From: an uncultured Bacteroidota bacterium
GTDB taxonomy: Bacteria; Bacteroidota; Bacteroidia; Flavobacteriales; Flavobacteriaceae
DNA: 64,000 bases
Direction: 5' to 3'
Assembly: GCA_902598295.1 (NCBI GenBank)
Contig: CACKBA010000001.1
Span: forward strand, 1 to 64,000
A model generated the notes under the pieces. It was given only the letters and a program-made list of their open reading frames with translations. It was not told where the DNA came from and ran no database searches. Positions 9,193 to 15,899 of this stretch are shown here, piece after piece (the first letter of the stretch is position 1; every line of letters starts with the position of its first letter). The position numbers and the translations under genes are program-made.

Positions 9193-9222
9193 AATGGCTC
9201 ATTGATGGGCCATTTTTTTTTT
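9193..9222 (+). terminator. Rho-independent terminator-like hairpin
   Basis: AATGGCTCA-TTGA-TGGGCCATT (9 bp with one T:G wobble) followed by T-run. Confidence 0.6.
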
Positions 9223-9960
9223 AAAAATTTTGAGTTTTTGATTTTATGCTGGATAACCTTGGGGCTAATAACCTTTCTTTATTTAATATATTCAAAAACA
9301 AGGGCACCATATGGAAGACACGTTAAAAAAAAACGTGGGATTCTAATTGATAACTCGTTTGGTTGGTTTATTATGGAAATGCCTGCATTAATTATTATGC
9401 CGATCTTAAGTTTACAGAACCTCAATAATTCATTTGCAGTATTCATTGCCTGTCTTTGGTTATTACATTATTTCAATAGAACCATTGTGTTTCCCTTGAG
9501 GATAAACACTAAAAAAAAGAAAATTCCAATATCCATAGTTCTGAGCGCTTTTGCTTTTAATTCGATTAATGGTTTGTTTAATGGCTATCATGTTCAACTT
9601 AATGTTTCACAAACAAACTTTTTTGAATTTAATATTATCGTTGGTGTATTAATATTTTTTATTGGGATGTTAATTAATATAACATCCGACAACAAATTAA
9701 TTTCATTAAGGAGACAGAAAATGGGCTACAAAATTCCACAAGGTAAATTATTTAAATTGGTTTCTTGTCCAAATTATTTGGGTGAGATTATTGAATGGTT
9801 TGGCTTTTTTATAATTGTTCCTAGCATAGCTTCGTTAAGTTTTTTCCTTTGGACTTCATTCAACTTGATACCAAGGGCTCTAAATCATCATGAGTGGTAC
9901 AACGAAAAGTTTAAAAATTATCCAAAAAACAGAAAAGCCGTAATTCCGTATACTTTATAA
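9205..9960 (+). CDS. steroid 5-alpha-reductase C-terminal/DUF1295-like membrane protein
   Basis: GYKIPQGKLFKLVSCPNYLGEIIEWFGFFI...HHEWYNEKFKNYPKNRKAVIPY; exact start uncertain because it lies in the hairpin. Confidence 0.8.
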   Translation: MGHFFFKNFEFLILCWITLGLITFLYLIYSKTRAPYGRHVKKKRGILIDNSFGWFIMEMPALIIMPILSLQNLNNSFAVFIACLWLLHYFNRTIVFPLRINTKKKKIPISIVLSAFAFNSINGLFNGYHVQLNVSQTNFFEFNIIVGVLIFFIGMLINITSDNKLISLRRQKMGYKIPQGKLFKLVSCPNYLGEIIEWFGFFIIVPSIASLSFFLWTSFNLIPRALNHHEWYNEKFKNYPKNRKAVIPYTL

Positions 9961-9984: not shown

Positions 9985-10323
9985 ATGAATGCATACAAAG
10001 CAAATCTTATCAATTCCATTTCATTAATTGTTTTTGGCGTTTGGGGCTATATTGATGGATCATCAATTACAGCACTAATTCCAACTGCTTTTGGGGCTAT
10101 TCTTTTAGCCTGCACTGGTGGAGTTAAAAATCAAAATAAAATTATTGCACATATTGCCGTACTGTTAACACTATTGATCCTATTTGCACTTTTAGGAATG
10201 AGATTGCCAAAATCATTAGAGTCAGGTGGTATTGGTCTATTCCGAGTATTATTTATGTGTGGAACATCATTGTTAGCAATGATTTATTTTGTAAAAAGTT
10301 TTATAGCAGCAAGAAAAAAGTAG
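9985..10323 (+). CDS. hypothetical small membrane protein
   Basis: Intact 112-aa ORF with several TM segments. Confidence 0.6.
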   Translation: MNAYKANLINSISLIVFGVWGYIDGSSITALIPTAFGAILLACTGGVKNQNKIIAHIAVLLTLLILFALLGMRLPKSLESGGIGLFRVLFMCGTSLLAMIYFVKSFIAARKK

Positions 10324-10324
10324 A

Positions 10325-10492
10325 CTAATTTTTTTGTGGAAATCTACCATAGTTTCCCATTCCATCATAGTCCATTTCATTAGCTTGATCTGAATCCTTG
10401 TACTTATCTTTTTCCTCTTTGTTAACTAGAAATACACTTGCAATCACCAAACAACTAACCAAAAAACCAATTATAAATAAATACAATTCCAT
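10325..10492 (-). CDS. 55-aa small single-TM protein (partner B of cassette copy 1)
   Basis: Manual translation MELYLFIIGFLVSCLVIASVFLVNKEEKDKYKDSDQANEMDYDGMGNYGRFPQKN*; not in track. Confidence 0.6.
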   Translation of the reverse strand: MELYLFIIGFLVSCLVIASVFLVNKEEKDKYKDSDQANEMDYDGMGNYGRFPQKN

Positions 10493-10494
10493 TA

Positions 10495-10668
10495 CTATTT
10501 ATATACGCTTTTAACGTATGAACCAAAAGCTAATATTGAGGGGACCCATAATCCTACATAAAAACCTTCTTCCTTAAAACCATTAAACCATAATCCAACA
10601 GATAAAGCAAATGAAATTAATACTGCAATTAAAAGCAATTTATCTGACTTTTTAAATTTGGAAAACAT
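10495..10668 (-). CDS. 57-aa small membrane protein with WVPSIL motif (partner A of cassette copy 1)
   Basis: Manual translation MFSKFKKSDKLLLIAVLISFALSVGLWFNGFKEEGFYVGLWVPSILAFGSYVKSVYK*; paralogue at 15575. Confidence 0.7.
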   Translation of the reverse strand: MFSKFKKSDKLLLIAVLISFALSVGLWFNGFKEEGFYVGLWVPSILAFGSYVKSVYK

Positions 10669-10749
10669 GTCTTTTAAATATTAGTTTAAATTAACTTATA
10701 TATTTGTGATGTTAATATTAGTAAATATTTACAAAATATTAGAGAATTT

Positions 10750-11622
10750 ATGACTGAAAAAATTAATAGTGTTTTTAAAAAAGTTTTTTCAGATAGGAAT
10801 TTAAAAACATTTGAAAAAATTATCTTATTTCTAGCTACGGCTGGATTTATAATTCACTTGGTTCTAATATTATTAAATAACAAGGGCTACGTAGATCTAT
10901 CATTTTTTCAGGGTAGCCTATTTGTAAATCCAATTTCAGCAATTTACACCCCTTTTTCTTTCATCTTAATATATGAGGCATTTCTATTAATCTATTATTT
11001 GCCTAGATCATTTACAACCTCCATAGCAAAGCAATTTGAGATTATGTCTCTCATTTTAATAAGAAAAATATTTAAAGATATCCCTGATGTTAATCTTTCT
11101 GATAATTGGATTTTAAATGAAAATAACCTTCAATTGATTTATGATTTGACAGGTGTATTAATTGTTTTTTATCTAATATATATGTTTAAAAAGTTGAAGG
11201 AAAATTTACCGAAACTGCCTGTTCATCAAAACTTGGAGCGTTTCCTAGGTTACAAAAGATTAATTAGTCTTTTATTAATTCCTACATTAATTATTCTTTG
11301 TGTATTTAGTTTTATAGATTGGTACGGTGCTATATTTATTGGTGGAGAGGGCTCTCCAAATATTGATTATTTATTTTTTGTGGAATTTTTTGGAATATTA
11401 ATTTTGGTTGATGTATTTATTTTATTGATTTCTTTTCAATACACAGAAAGATACTCACAACTGGTTAGAAATACCGGTTTTATCATATCAACCATACTTT
11501 TAAGATTGTCATTTAATGCAGTTGGGTTAACCAGTGTAATTCTATTGATAAGCGGAATAGTTTTCGGATTAATTATTCTTTACATTTATAACAAAATGGA
11601 AAGAACATCTTTAGTCACATGA
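10750..11622 (+). CDS. hypothetical multi-pass membrane protein
   Basis: Long ORF with about seven hydrophobic segments. Confidence 0.6.
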   Translation: MTEKINSVFKKVFSDRNLKTFEKIILFLATAGFIIHLVLILLNNKGYVDLSFFQGSLFVNPISAIYTPFSFILIYEAFLLIYYLPRSFTTSIAKQFEIMSLILIRKIFKDIPDVNLSDNWILNENNLQLIYDLTGVLIVFYLIYMFKKLKENLPKLPVHQNLERFLGYKRLISLLLIPTLIILCVFSFIDWYGAIFIGGEGSPNIDYLFFVEFFGILILVDVFILLISFQYTERYSQLVRNTGFIISTILLRLSFNAVGLTSVILLISGIVFGLIILYIYNKMERTSLVT

Positions 11623-12180
11623 TCCTAAGCTATAACTGATTAGTCCAGCACATCCAGCCAAGGTAGAGTTATTGTAAGTAAAACCATCGCAACCACAAAC
11701 AGGGTCTACAACAGTTGGTGCAATGCAATTTTTATTAATCTTTGTTAAATCTATACATCCATCAAAATATTTACTGATGAATTCCTCATTTTCTTGTGAT
11801 CCAAATGTCATATTACTAATTTCTGAGATGGCAGCTCTGATGAGTTCAACTGAATCAGATGTGTCTGGCATTGTAAATGTTGATCTATCCATACTAATTA
11901 ATTCGTTTTTGTCGGAATTTAGATCAATAGCTGTGTAAAAATAATATCTTAGTACGTAACCAATACTGATTTCTAGATTTCCATAATTTTTATCAAAAAC
12001 TGCTGAATCAGAAATTGTTGTTTTTAAAATTCGATAAGGCTGATTAAAACCTGAATTAGTTCGAAGAGCTGGCAACTCAATTATGTCAGATAGATTTTGG
12101 TCTCTATCATTATCATTAGGGTATTCTTCTGAACAAGAAATTGAGTTAAAAATAAGAAGCATAACAAAGAAGTTTTTCAT
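11611..12180 (-). CDS. lipoprotein with C-terminal Kazal-like domain
   Basis: Start MKNFFVMLLIFNSISC lipobox; CIAPTVVDPVCGCDGFTYNNSTLAGCAGLISYSLGSC matches Kazal-like spacing. Confidence 0.7.
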   Translation of the reverse strand: MKNFFVMLLIFNSISCSEEYPNDNDRDQNLSDIIELPALRTNSGFNQPYRILKTTISDSAVFDKNYGNLEISIGYVLRYYFYTAIDLNSDKNELISMDRSTFTMPDTSDSVELIRAAISEISNMTFGSQENEEFISKYFDGCIDLTKINKNCIAPTVVDPVCGCDGFTYNNSTLAGCAGLISYSLGSCD

Positions 12181-12219
12181 AATTGTATTGTTTTCAAGTA
12201 TTATGCCATACAATTTTGC

Positions 12220-12960
12220 TTAGGAATAAGTACTATAACTTGGATTAATAGGTGATATAATTTCAAAAACTTTTGCTTTTTCTAATACTTTAATTTGGAA
12301 ATAATTTTCTAATTGAACAGTAAAAAAAGTTCCCTCAGAGTATTCAGTTCCATTAAAAGACATTACTCCTTCAATCAAAAATATAGAATGAACACAACCT
12401 TCATTAATATCAATTAGATGATCTCCAATTTCAAAACAATATTCATTTACACTAACTCCTTCAGAATCAATTTGGACTGGTGAATCACCGCCTATTATAT
12501 TTTTCACGACTTTATTTTTTGTAGTGTTTACTGCAAATTCATTTGACTTGTAATCGCTATATGATGCTTCCTTAATTAAAGTTTTTGAAAGATCCGGATC
12601 AAACCAAATTTGAAAAATTTCAGAGTTATCACAAATTTCCTCGGAATGGGATATTCCACTTCCTGAACGTACTACTTGAACATCTCCCTCATCAAGTGGT
12701 ATCCATTTATTTTGCACAGTATCAAAGTGATTTATTTTGCCTTTCAAAACAAAACTACATATCTCAAAACCCCTGTGAGGATGAAGTCCAATTGTACTTT
12801 TTTCATAAGGTGTCCACGCATGAGCCCAATAAAATATATTCGAATAAGGTTTTAATTTGCCTCCATCTTGAGGAAAACCAATGGGTTTTTTTTCTAAAAT
12901 TTCGCCCTGATTAAAGCTTCCGCTTGCTTGATCACTTTTTTTATAAACACTAACACCCAT
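12220..12960 (-). CDS. pirin family protein
   Basis: Cupin: ANAW-like YWAHAWTPYEKSTIGLHPHRGFEICSFVLKG; DVQVVRSGSGISHSE. Confidence 0.9.
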   Translation of the reverse strand: MGVSVYKKSDQASGSFNQGEILEKKPIGFPQDGGKLKPYSNIFYWAHAWTPYEKSTIGLHPHRGFEICSFVLKGKINHFDTVQNKWIPLDEGDVQVVRSGSGISHSEEICDNSEIFQIWFDPDLSKTLIKEASYSDYKSNEFAVNTTKNKVVKNIIGGDSPVQIDSEGVSVNEYCFEIGDHLIDINEGCVHSIFLIEGVMSFNGTEYSEGTFFTVQLENYFQIKVLEKAKVFEIISPINPSYSTYS

Positions 12961-12965
12961 CCTGC

Positions 12966-13499
12966 TTATATTTTAGAGATAAATTCATTGAGTTTGGATT
13001 CAAAAATAGATTTAAGTTTAGGGTCGGTTATTCCCAAGTTATCATTAAAGTTCTCATTAAAGTTTGGTAGAGAAAAAGTTGAAATATGGTTTGTATTACG
13101 CCTACTTATCCTAGAAAATGCTGCTTCAAGAACTATAACAGCTCCATTCCCGCCTGTTGATGTTGCTAATAAAAACATTGGTTTGTTATACCATACATTT
13201 TTATCAATTCTTGATATCCAGTCAAATATATTTTTGAAAGCACTGGTATAAGAGGCATTGTGTTCTGCAAAAGAAATTACAACAGCGTCTGAGTTTTTAA
13301 ATTGTTGTTTAAATCTGTGTGCTAGGTCTGGAATACCATCTTCATTTTCTCTGTCAATACTATAAATTGGCATTTCATAATCATTCAAGTCGAGGATGTT
13401 TACATCTGCATTAGGAATACAACTTGCCACATAGACAGCAAGTTTCTTATTTATGGATTTTTTCGAGGAGCTCGCTCCAAATGCTAAAATTTTACTCAT
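12966..13499 (-). CDS. NAD(P)H-dependent FMN reductase
   Basis: ILAFGASSSKKSINKKL, PNADVNILDLNDYEMPIYS, MFLLATSTGGNGA. Confidence 0.88.
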   Translation of the reverse strand: MSKILAFGASSSKKSINKKLAVYVASCIPNADVNILDLNDYEMPIYSIDRENEDGIPDLAHRFKQQFKNSDAVVISFAEHNASYTSAFKNIFDWISRIDKNVWYNKPMFLLATSTGGNGAVIVLEAAFSRISRRNTNHISTFSLPNFNENFNDNLGITDPKLKSIFESKLNEFISKI

Positions 13500-13585
13500 T
13501 ATTTTTTACTGTGTGATCCATCACAATAACCATTGGGATTTGATGTATTTCCACATCCACACATTGGTTTGTCTATTGATTTCAT
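13499..13585 (-). CDS. 28-aa stand-alone CDGSH-type iron-sulfur protein
   Basis: Manual translation MKSIDKPMCGCGNTSNPNGYCDGSHSKK*; in-frame stop upstream; TAATG overlap with FMN reductase start. Confidence 0.7.
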   Translation of the reverse strand: MKSIDKPMCGCGNTSNPNGYCDGSHSKK

Positions 13586-13622
13586 ATTAAATTTTTTTAA
13601 TTTTTTTCAAATAATATGCCAT

Positions 13623-13961
13623 CTAATCATCGAATTCGAATAAATCCTTTGTTTCATCTGAATCAAAATCGACTGACTCATCAATTTTTTTTATTTCTGA
13701 AACTATGGATTTCATGATCTTTTTATTGCATCCTTCAAAATTTTTGAGTTGAACTAAATCTTCAACCAAAAGGCTTTTTCTTCTATTTTCTTTGAATGAT
13801 TTAAAAAGCTTCTCTAGATAATTATTGAAAAAATCTATTTGATCTAAGTAGCATTCTTTAATTAAGTCTAATGTTTCTAAACTTTTTGACCTTCGTTTAA
13901 AAGCTTTGAAGTAAAATACCTTGAGTTCTCTCTCAATAATATCTGATAGAAATTTATTCAA
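13623..13961 (-). CDS. hypothetical helical protein
   Basis: Intact 112-aa ORF, charged, acidic C-terminus. Confidence 0.55.
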   Translation of the reverse strand: MNKFLSDIIERELKVFYFKAFKRRSKSLETLDLIKECYLDQIDFFNNYLEKLFKSFKENRRKSLLVEDLVQLKNFEGCNKKIMKSIVSEIKKIDESVDFDSDETKDLFEFDD

Positions 13962-14036
13962 TGATTCATTTTATTTGACGATAAAATTAATTTGAATTTA
14001 GTAAAATGGTTTAGGTTTTGATTAATTTAATTTGAA

Positions 14037-14354
14037 ATGCACATATATAATATAACTTTTATAGTTGAAAAAGAAATTGAAAAAAACTGGATTGAACATA
14101 TTGATATGGTTTTGCTTCCAGAAATTTCAGCTAATGTTCACCAAGTAGATTTACTCAAAGTTACATTTGAGGAAAACCCCACAAACATCCAAGGTTCTAC
14201 ATTTACCGTTCAATTTTATTGCTCTGACGAAAGTATGATTAGTTGGGTTAAAGAAATTGGACATCAAATGCTTTTACAAAAATTATACAGAAAATTTCCT
14301 AAATACTGGGTGGCATTTGCTTCAAGATTAGATTTCATCAAAACTTATAAATAA
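14037..14354 (+). CDS. DUF4286 family protein
   Basis: YNITFIVEKEIEKNWIEHIDMVLLPEI... typical DUF4286. Confidence 0.8.
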   Translation: MHIYNITFIVEKEIEKNWIEHIDMVLLPEISANVHQVDLLKVTFEENPTNIQGSTFTVQFYCSDESMISWVKEIGHQMLLQKLYRKFPKYWVAFASRLDFIKTYK

Positions 14355-14388
14355 TAATGGCACATGTTTTGAACACTGTGTTATTGAA

Positions 14389-15000
14389 ATGAAAAATTTA
14401 GTCGTTATAGGGCACCCTGACAAAAATTCTTTTTGCCATAACGGGATTTTTAAAACGATTTGTTCTGAAATTAGTAATAAAGGTGAAGAACTTGAGATAA
14501 TAGATCTATACAGGGATAGTTTTACCCGCCCAAGAACTAAGCTCATTGAAAAGTATAAAAAACTTGTTACTTGGTGTGAAAGAATATACATCGTTTCACC
14601 AGTTTGGTGGTTCAGATTGACTCCTAGAATGGAAGTTTTTTTTGACGAGGTATTTACCCCTGGATTTGCATATAAGTTTGTGAATGTCACGAAAACCTAC
14701 GCTTATCCTGTACCGTTTTTAAAAGATAAAAAAGTGCGAACCTATATCACTCATGGAGCACCCTCACTTCCTGTTAGAACCCTTTATGTAAATTCAGTAA
14801 AACTAAGACTTGTAATGGGTGTGTACACTTTTGTTTTTGGATGGAGATTATCCCTCTTTACAAAAACAAAGCAATTCTGGTCGGTACCCTTTGTTTCTGA
14901 AAAAAAGAGAAAGAAATATTTAAGAACTGTTCAAAAAGATATAAGAAGGGATTTGAGACACTCTGTTGTTTCTCAAAAAGAAGCACTATCTTCACTCTAA
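14389..15000 (+). CDS. flavodoxin-fold NAD(P)H oxidoreductase
   Basis: MKNLVVIGHPDKNSFCHNGI..., IYIVSPVWWFRLTPRMEVFFDEVFTPGFAY. Confidence 0.85.
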   Translation: MKNLVVIGHPDKNSFCHNGIFKTICSEISNKGEELEIIDLYRDSFTRPRTKLIEKYKKLVTWCERIYIVSPVWWFRLTPRMEVFFDEVFTPGFAYKFVNVTKTYAYPVPFLKDKKVRTYITHGAPSLPVRTLYVNSVKLRLVMGVYTFVFGWRLSLFTKTKQFWSVPFVSEKKRKKYLRTVQKDIRRDLRHSVVSQKEALSSL

Positions 15001-15015
15001 ACTAACTGCTATTCA

Positions 15016-15453
15016 ATGTATAACTTTAACACCAATGACTACCTAGTCAGAATTCCTTTATTTATCATATTTTTTTGGTTTGGGTTTTTAAAAATTATTG
15101 ATTTATCTCCAGCACAAGAACTAGTTATGGACACGGTGTATTGGATGCCTTTTTTGGATGCTGCAACCTGGACAATAATTATTGGTGTTTGGGAAGTTTT
15201 CATTGCAATTTTCTTTTTGTTTAAAAGAACAACACTGATTGCTATGGTTCTACTTCTAATCCAGATGACAGGTACCTTTTTACCACTAGTAATTCTGCCT
15301 GAAGTTACATTTCAAAACTCAAATCCTTTTTTACCTACACTGGAAGGTCAGTATATAATTAAAAATATAATTATAATAACTGCTGCTATAATTATTGGTG
15401 GAACACAACTTAAAGTAGGATTATTCAATAAATTTTTTAAAGATGGGGTATAA
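15016..15453 (+). CDS. DUF417/YkgB-like DoxX-related membrane protein
   Basis: LFIIFFWFGFLKIIDLSPAQE...LPTLEGQYIIKN. Confidence 0.65.
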   Translation: MYNFNTNDYLVRIPLFIIFFWFGFLKIIDLSPAQELVMDTVYWMPFLDAATWTIIIGVWEVFIAIFFLFKRTTLIAMVLLLIQMTGTFLPLVILPEVTFQNSNPFLPTLEGQYIIKNIIIITAAIIIGGTQLKVGLFNKFFKDGV

Positions 15454-15538
15454 GAGTGAAATATTTGTTTACTTATGGATTATCTTAATCTTTATATTGG
15501 GAAGTTTAGAGATTTATAAAAAGTATAAAAAAAAATAA
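15443..15538 (+). CDS. putative 31-aa single-TM protein
   Basis: Manual translation MGYKSEIFVYLWIILIFILGSLEIYKKYKKK*, overlaps 3' end of preceding gene. Confidence 0.4.
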   Translation: MGYKSEIFVYLWIILIFILGSLEIYKKYKKK

Positions 15539-15574
15539 TTAATAATATTCTGCATAATTTTTGCTTAAATTATT

Positions 15575-15769
15575 GTGATGATTAATTTCTTCTTAAAATA
15601 CTATCCAATCATACTAGCCTTTATATCTTTTTTGTTTTCTGTTTTTCTCTGGTTTAGCGGTGATAAACTGAGTGGAATTTTTGTTGGAATTTGGGTTCCA
15701 TCAATACTTGCTCTTTCAATTGCAATACGACAACGGAGAAATGATGATAAAGATTTAGGCAATGGATGA
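15575..15769 (+). CDS. 64-aa small membrane protein with WVPSIL motif (partner A of cassette copy 2)
   Basis: ISFLFSVFLWFSGDKLSGIFVGIWVPSILALSIAIR; paralogue at 10495-10668. Confidence 0.75.
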   Translation: MMINFFLKYYPIILAFISFLFSVFLWFSGDKLSGIFVGIWVPSILALSIAIRQRRNDDKDLGNG

Positions 15770-15899
15770 TAAAATAATTTTTATTGTAGGCTTTGTAATA
15801 TTTTGCCTTTATTTAGTTGGATTCTTGGCTGTCATATATACTCAAAATAAAATACAAGACAAGGAGCTAGAAAACGATCCCGAAATTGAAGGCAACTAA
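15762..15899 (+). CDS. 45-aa small single-TM protein (partner B of cassette copy 2)
   Basis: Manual translation MDDKIIFIVGFVIFCLYLVGFLAVIYTQNKIQDKELENDPEIEGN*; overlaps partner A by 8 nt. Confidence 0.6.
   Translation: MDDKIIFIVGFVIFCLYLVGFLAVIYTQNKIQDKELENDPEIEGN

Follow-up and report, generated by a model that had tools for sequence, protein, structure and literature searches.

In Rhodobacter sphaeroides, the RpoE-ChrR regulon lists the photolyase gene phrA, the fasciclin gene RSP_1409, the SDR gene RSP_1087 and folE2, all of which are given with singlet-oxygen induction values (PMC7074977). An early comparison found that rhodopsin, blh and a photolyase-like flavoprotein are uniquely common to proteorhodopsin-bearing flavobacteria (PMC2668756). 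One small subunit of the alternative complex III (ACIII) of R. marinus, ActG, lacks density and is predicted to have a single transmembrane helix (PMC5928083). Here, we describe a pair of genes for small membrane proteins, designated A-B, that occurs twice in a 64,000-nucleotide stretch (the window) of contig CACKBA010000001.1 from an uncultured member of the Flavobacteriaceae. The neighbors of A-B belong to the same families (photolyase, fasciclin, SDR and GTP cyclohydrolase) as members of the singlet-oxygen (RpoE-ChrR, ECF11) regulon, although descriptions of the R. sphaeroides set mention no homologue of A or B.

Neither A nor B is covered by any family in Pfam, NCBIfam, PADLOC or the PDB, and PDB searches with the A and B profiles gave no match. 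The pair, both proteins of which are shorter than 65 aa, is unnamed by these libraries, and no description of it was found in the open-licence literature. In size and coverage, A2 resembles the NCBIfam family SE1626 (NF047566), with residues 12-59 aligned to positions 9-54 of a 55-position profile, but its score of 16.3 bits falls below the curated cut-off of 70, and this identity was rejected; the SE1626 profile reached E 0.01 with 1 of 50 A members. Like the match to SE1626, those to Ycf66, DUF3953, Na+/H+ antiporter subunit B and 7TMR-DISM fell short of the threshold and were not judged credible. A 478-aa open frame with weak A matches was dropped, being an LptG-like permease as judged from its sequence.

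Two gene pairs in the window

The two pairs and the genes around them are as follows.

9202-9960, plus strand: steroid 5-alpha-reductase/DUF1295-like gene, syntenic with A1B1 across the genus
9985-10323, plus strand: Tmem14-like protein, syntenic with A1B1 across the genus
10325..10492, minus strand: B1, 55-aa protein with one transmembrane (TM) segment, tail end DYDGMGNYGRFPQKN
10495..10668, minus strand: A1, 57-aa two-TM hairpin protein containing LWFNGFKEEGFYVGLWVPSILAFG
10750..11622, plus strand: 290-aa multi-TM protein, divergent from A1, with the motif IYTPFSFILIYEAFLLIYYLPRSF
12220-12960, minus strand: pirin-like gene (sequence inspection only), between the two pairs
12966-13499, minus strand: NADPH-dependent FMN reductase (FMN_red, 5.6e-29), between the two pairs
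15016..15453, plus strand: DoxX/RclC-like membrane protein, ~120 bp 5' of A2, with weak sub-threshold family matches
15575..15769, plus strand: A2, two-TM hairpin protein of 64 aa from GTG 15575 or 63 aa from ATG 15578
15762..15899, plus strand: B2, 45-aa one-TM protein

All four small ORFs of the original prediction were found where it had placed them, on opposite strands and in the same A-then-B order, with the tight spacing that it had described: A1 and B1 are separated by a gap of 2 nt, and A2 and B2 overlap by 8 nt. This spacing suggests that each pair is probably translationally coupled. The pair is duplicated as predicted, and the partner A copies are alike, since an A2 query retrieved A1 with an E value of 2.4e-9 and 53% identity; by this match, A1 and A2 are homologous. 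The two copies had also been assigned to different neighborhoods, which is true in part; their settings are not unrelated, as the copies lie ~5 kb apart on opposite strands in a single conserved region. Congeners with A1 and A2 on one contig show a similar arrangement, with ~5-10 kb separation and opposite strands, and both A types were present in 8 of 8 congeners that were at least 80% complete. B1 was found beside A1 in 20/20 genus copies examined. An extra B is present 3' of A1 in part of the genus (L031-L035, L045, L056).

The median dN/dS values were 0.135 for A1, 0.089 for A2, 0.123 for B1 and 0.171 for B2, and no usable pair exceeded 1 for any of the four genes; medians of 0.09-0.17 indicate purifying selection on A1, A2, B1 and B2 alike. 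A tree of 79 A proteins, which has few columns and many open forks, places A1 of the genus among the common A type and groups A2 with A of other Flavobacteriales families with support of 100/99. A1 and A2 are ancient paralogues, and their duplication is not recent.

Spread of A and its pairing with B

The strict motif of A is S-x3-S-x2-LWF-...-G-[FY]VG-x-WVPSIL. Among 50 diverse members, S17, S21, W25, G33, G37, W39, V40, P41, S42 and L44 (A2 numbering) are invariant, and an AlphaFold (AF2) model of A2 is a two-helix hairpin with a mean pLDDT of 79. When GTDB genomes were scanned for the pattern [FY][VIM]G[LI]W[VI]P[ST][IL]L, at least 580 confirmed A relatives were obtained, the best 80 of which belong to Bacteroidota, Balneolota, Acidobacteriota, Planctomycetota, Deinococcota, Omnitrophota and records labelled Actinobacteria. 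Within the phylum, the A profile matched 132 of 393 genomes at E<=0.001, a scan in which at most 16 candidates per genome were scored, so that absences are unsure; about half of these 132 genomes carry a Chlorobium-type subfamily without B. In Acidobacteriota, A is patchy (17/247 genomes at E<=1e-5, about nine of them of the WVPS type). The Chlorobium-type MKP...FIGLWAPTI proteins and the VGQWA proteins, which have the hairpin motif in common and occur without B, were treated as separate subfamilies. Chlorobiaceae-like loci (L115, L116, L118, L119, L133, L134) encode a lone A-like MKPxYY...FIGLWAPTI protein with no B, directly 5' of a crcB-like (fluoride channel) gene. A further hairpin family, ...ALFVGQWAAPFLLLGIYNKIVK, shows the same motif pattern without B (L123-L126, L248, L249) and was found in other Bacteroidia and Acidobacteriota genomes.

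In 63 of 82 non-redundant groups, A was directly followed by a B-like ORF, defined by a length of 27-85 aa, a hydrophobic helix at the N-terminus and a start at -16 to +23 nt from the A stop; the background was 23/911 (2.5%) when the identical test was applied downstream of other genes. Similarly, the B profile reached 10 bits or more in 104 ORFs in the vicinity of A and in 5 elsewhere among 7967. The groups without B were mostly A-like subfamilies without WVPS (Chlorobium-type, VGQWA-type) or Chlorobia-like trios, and at one locus (L104) B is present below the threshold of the pairing test. B homologues are thus found beside A in other genomes, and this pairing, together with the selection on the genes, supports the earlier view of a conserved small-protein module. 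The claim that these are not chance ORFs also stands, as the pair recurs both within the genus and far outside it and purifying selection acts on each of the four genes. A rare decoupling was seen in Acidobacteriota, where a B homologue (L191:1778-1990, minus strand) lies ~4 kb from A.

The acidic tail that the original prediction ascribed to B holds in part, but it is no family trait, as the mean charge of the B tail over the 63 groups is ~-0.1. A DYDG[MGS]G motif, with the window version DYDGMGNYGRFP, is common to B tails of flavobacterial groups (L057, L059, L049, L164, L205, L215, L218, L224) and was not seen in B tails of other phyla.

In the Chlorobia-like trios (L107, L122, L136-L138), the gene order is A-[B.A]-B. 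The middle gene encodes a C-terminal A hairpin (22-38 bits) preceded by a B-like N-terminus, which scores 23.4 bits in L136 and is weaker in the others. Fusion of adjacent genes is classical evidence for association of their products, and this natural B.A fusion suggests that A and B touch each other, as they would in the two-component membrane complex that the original prediction had considered possible. Two tiny adjoining genes, one of them with a hydrophobic helix, might also be read as a toxin-antitoxin or defence pair. We consider this reading extremely improbable, given that PADLOC returned no match, that the one PHROG match was weak and of unknown function, and that A-B shows vertical conservation and stable synteny in the genus.

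Genes adjacent to A-B

Neighbor clustering over the 82 groups showed that the 290-aa membrane protein is the most widely conserved large neighbor specific to A-B; apart from it, A contexts vary. It lies near A in 8 groups, including Balneolaceae (L098, L150), f44 (L140) and L226, is divergent from A1 throughout the genus and adjoins rhodopsin/A-B in the two Balneolaceae loci. It has no Pfam or NCBIfam match, and its AF2 model (pLDDT 52) is too low in confidence for a fold search. The DoxX-like gene is co-located with A in 7 groups and also occurs near A in Acidobacteriota, where DoxX_2 was confirmed in L189. The order of the pirin-like and FMN reductase genes is conserved in the genus.

We assessed genes near A in 23 non-Bacteroidota genomes, picked solely for having A, by whole-genome searches. 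A fasciclin gene was located within 0.5 kb of A in 6 of the 23 against an expected 0.02, and a DPRP photolyase within 7.3 kb in 6 of the 23 against an expected 0.06. Several of these genomes are related, so that their lineages are non-independent and the probabilities optimistic; when DPRP was counted as four lineages, p was still about 6e-7. Fasciclin is also adjacent to A in Balneolaceae (L098) and Flavobacteriaceae (L049), and lies within 2.3 kb in L055. The loci outside Bacteroidota show DPRP in L189, L190/L235, L221 and L242 and fasciclin in L170, L221, L231, L236, L237 and L241; amine-oxidase-like flavoproteins, Dps-like ferritins and DoxX were also found near A, as were BLUF and GTP cyclohydrolase in L191 and rhodopsin in L229. 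Pfam confirmed DPRP, fasciclin, amine oxidoreductase, BLUF, GTP cyclohydrolase, ferritin/Dps-like, rhodopsin and beta-carotene dioxygenase genes beside A.

In Balneolaceae, rhodopsin was present in 15 of 19 genomes with A, as compared with 4 of 27 without detected A (Fisher 1.7e-5); counted by genus, the figures were 6/6 versus 2/7 (p=0.016), and in 6 genomes rhodopsin lies within about 1.5 kb of A. In the genus of the window, 19 of 23 genomes have rhodopsin. Photo-oxidative neighbors of A-B were found in relatives outside the window lineage and not in the window itself: the window genome has both DPRP photolyase and rhodopsin, but on another contig (C3), away from A-B, whose surroundings offer no more than a DoxX-like, a flavin reductase, a flavodoxin-fold and a pirin-like gene. 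Many A-B loci (e.g., L238-L240, L245) have housekeeping neighbors.

One possible explanation for these contexts is that A-B is a general module for membrane stress or lipid homeostasis that acts, for example, alongside DoxX, the TMEM14-like protein and the 290-aa protein and is not specifically tied to light. Consistent with such a module, the 290-aa membrane protein is the most conserved neighbor in the window lineage, A2 has a DoxX-like gene nearby, and many A-B loci contain no light gene. However, the co-location with fasciclin and photolyase and the correlation with rhodopsin are too strong for neutral neighbors, and we regard this explanation as improbable. A sodium:solute-symporter-like gene lies directly 5' of the pair in a single Salinibacter-like case (L117), as might be expected if A and B were small regulatory or accessory transporter subunits, like small symporter subunits; no such transporter recurred in neighbor clustering, which makes this role very unlikely.

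A possible role in the photo-oxidative stress response

Several loci have a respiratory context. In six Chlorobia-like genomes of two families (L107, L109, L122, L136-L138), actB and actC are separated by A-[B.A]-B or A-B; ActB was recognized by its TAT-variant and Fe-S domains, and ActD was also identified. Elsewhere, A-B is located 5' of heme A synthase (L111) or adjoins a fused cytochrome c biogenesis gene (L053, L102). A and B resemble ActG and ActD of ACIII in being small, cofactor-free TM proteins with genes in some act operons. A and B might hence serve a respiratory complex, chiefly ACIII or an ACIII-oxidase supercomplex, as small accessory subunits or as assembly factors, with light genes adjoining them as respiration and phototrophy share the membrane. 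Against this, A-B is not part of the act operon either in the window or in those loci of Flavobacteriaceae and Balneolaceae that were read, no PDB chain, including ACIII subunits, matches A or B by sequence, and a Chloroherpeton-like genome (G064) has A but no ActD. ACIII was found in 299 of 393 genomes of the phylum, far more commonly than A-B, and its near universality in the aerobic part of the phylum makes co-occurrence with A-B uninformative. We consider a respiratory subunit unlikely, albeit a candidate of appreciable weight.

Taken together, the light and oxidative-stress neighbors and their likeness to the RpoE-ChrR regulon suggest that A-B is most likely part of a photo-oxidative gene set. 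We therefore tentatively prefer, at a probability a little short of even, the hypothesis that A-B acts in the photo-oxidative stress response as a small, heteromeric accessory complex of the inner membrane. In this hypothesis, A, a two-TM hairpin, and B, with its single TM, would be co-translated and would assemble with each other in that membrane, and the window genus would maintain two paralogous complexes of this kind. A-B would be accessory to a set comprising photolyase, fasciclin, FAD oxidoreductase, Dps-like ferritin, DoxX, and rhodopsin with retinal synthesis, and from the gene neighborhoods we infer that it may be induced by stress; an alignment of the upstream regions led to no assigned motif. 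Its most likely function would be to protect or stabilize membrane-embedded machinery that handles light or electrons when light and oxygen coincide, with rhodopsin and quinol-oxidizing complexes as example clients. The presence of A-B inside the ACIII operon of Chlorobia-like genomes suggests that the clients may be membrane redox complexes or light-driven ones. A broader version seems to us a doubtful extension. In it, A-B would be a heteromeric membrane complex, undescribed and spanning several phyla, that binds or shields membrane machines driven by light or quinol, such as rhodopsin and ACIII; the genus would use two paralogous units of it, and in rhodopsin phototrophs and in non-phototrophs alike it would be the counterpart of small membrane proteins that are photoprotective.

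With the present analysis, the genes that accompany photolyase, fasciclin and rhodopsin come to include a widespread, unnamed two-gene family of small proteins. Should the proposed role hold, A-B would offer a testable handle on membrane protection in proteorhodopsin bacteria and other sunlit microbes, and small ORFs beside stress genes could be working parts of that response.
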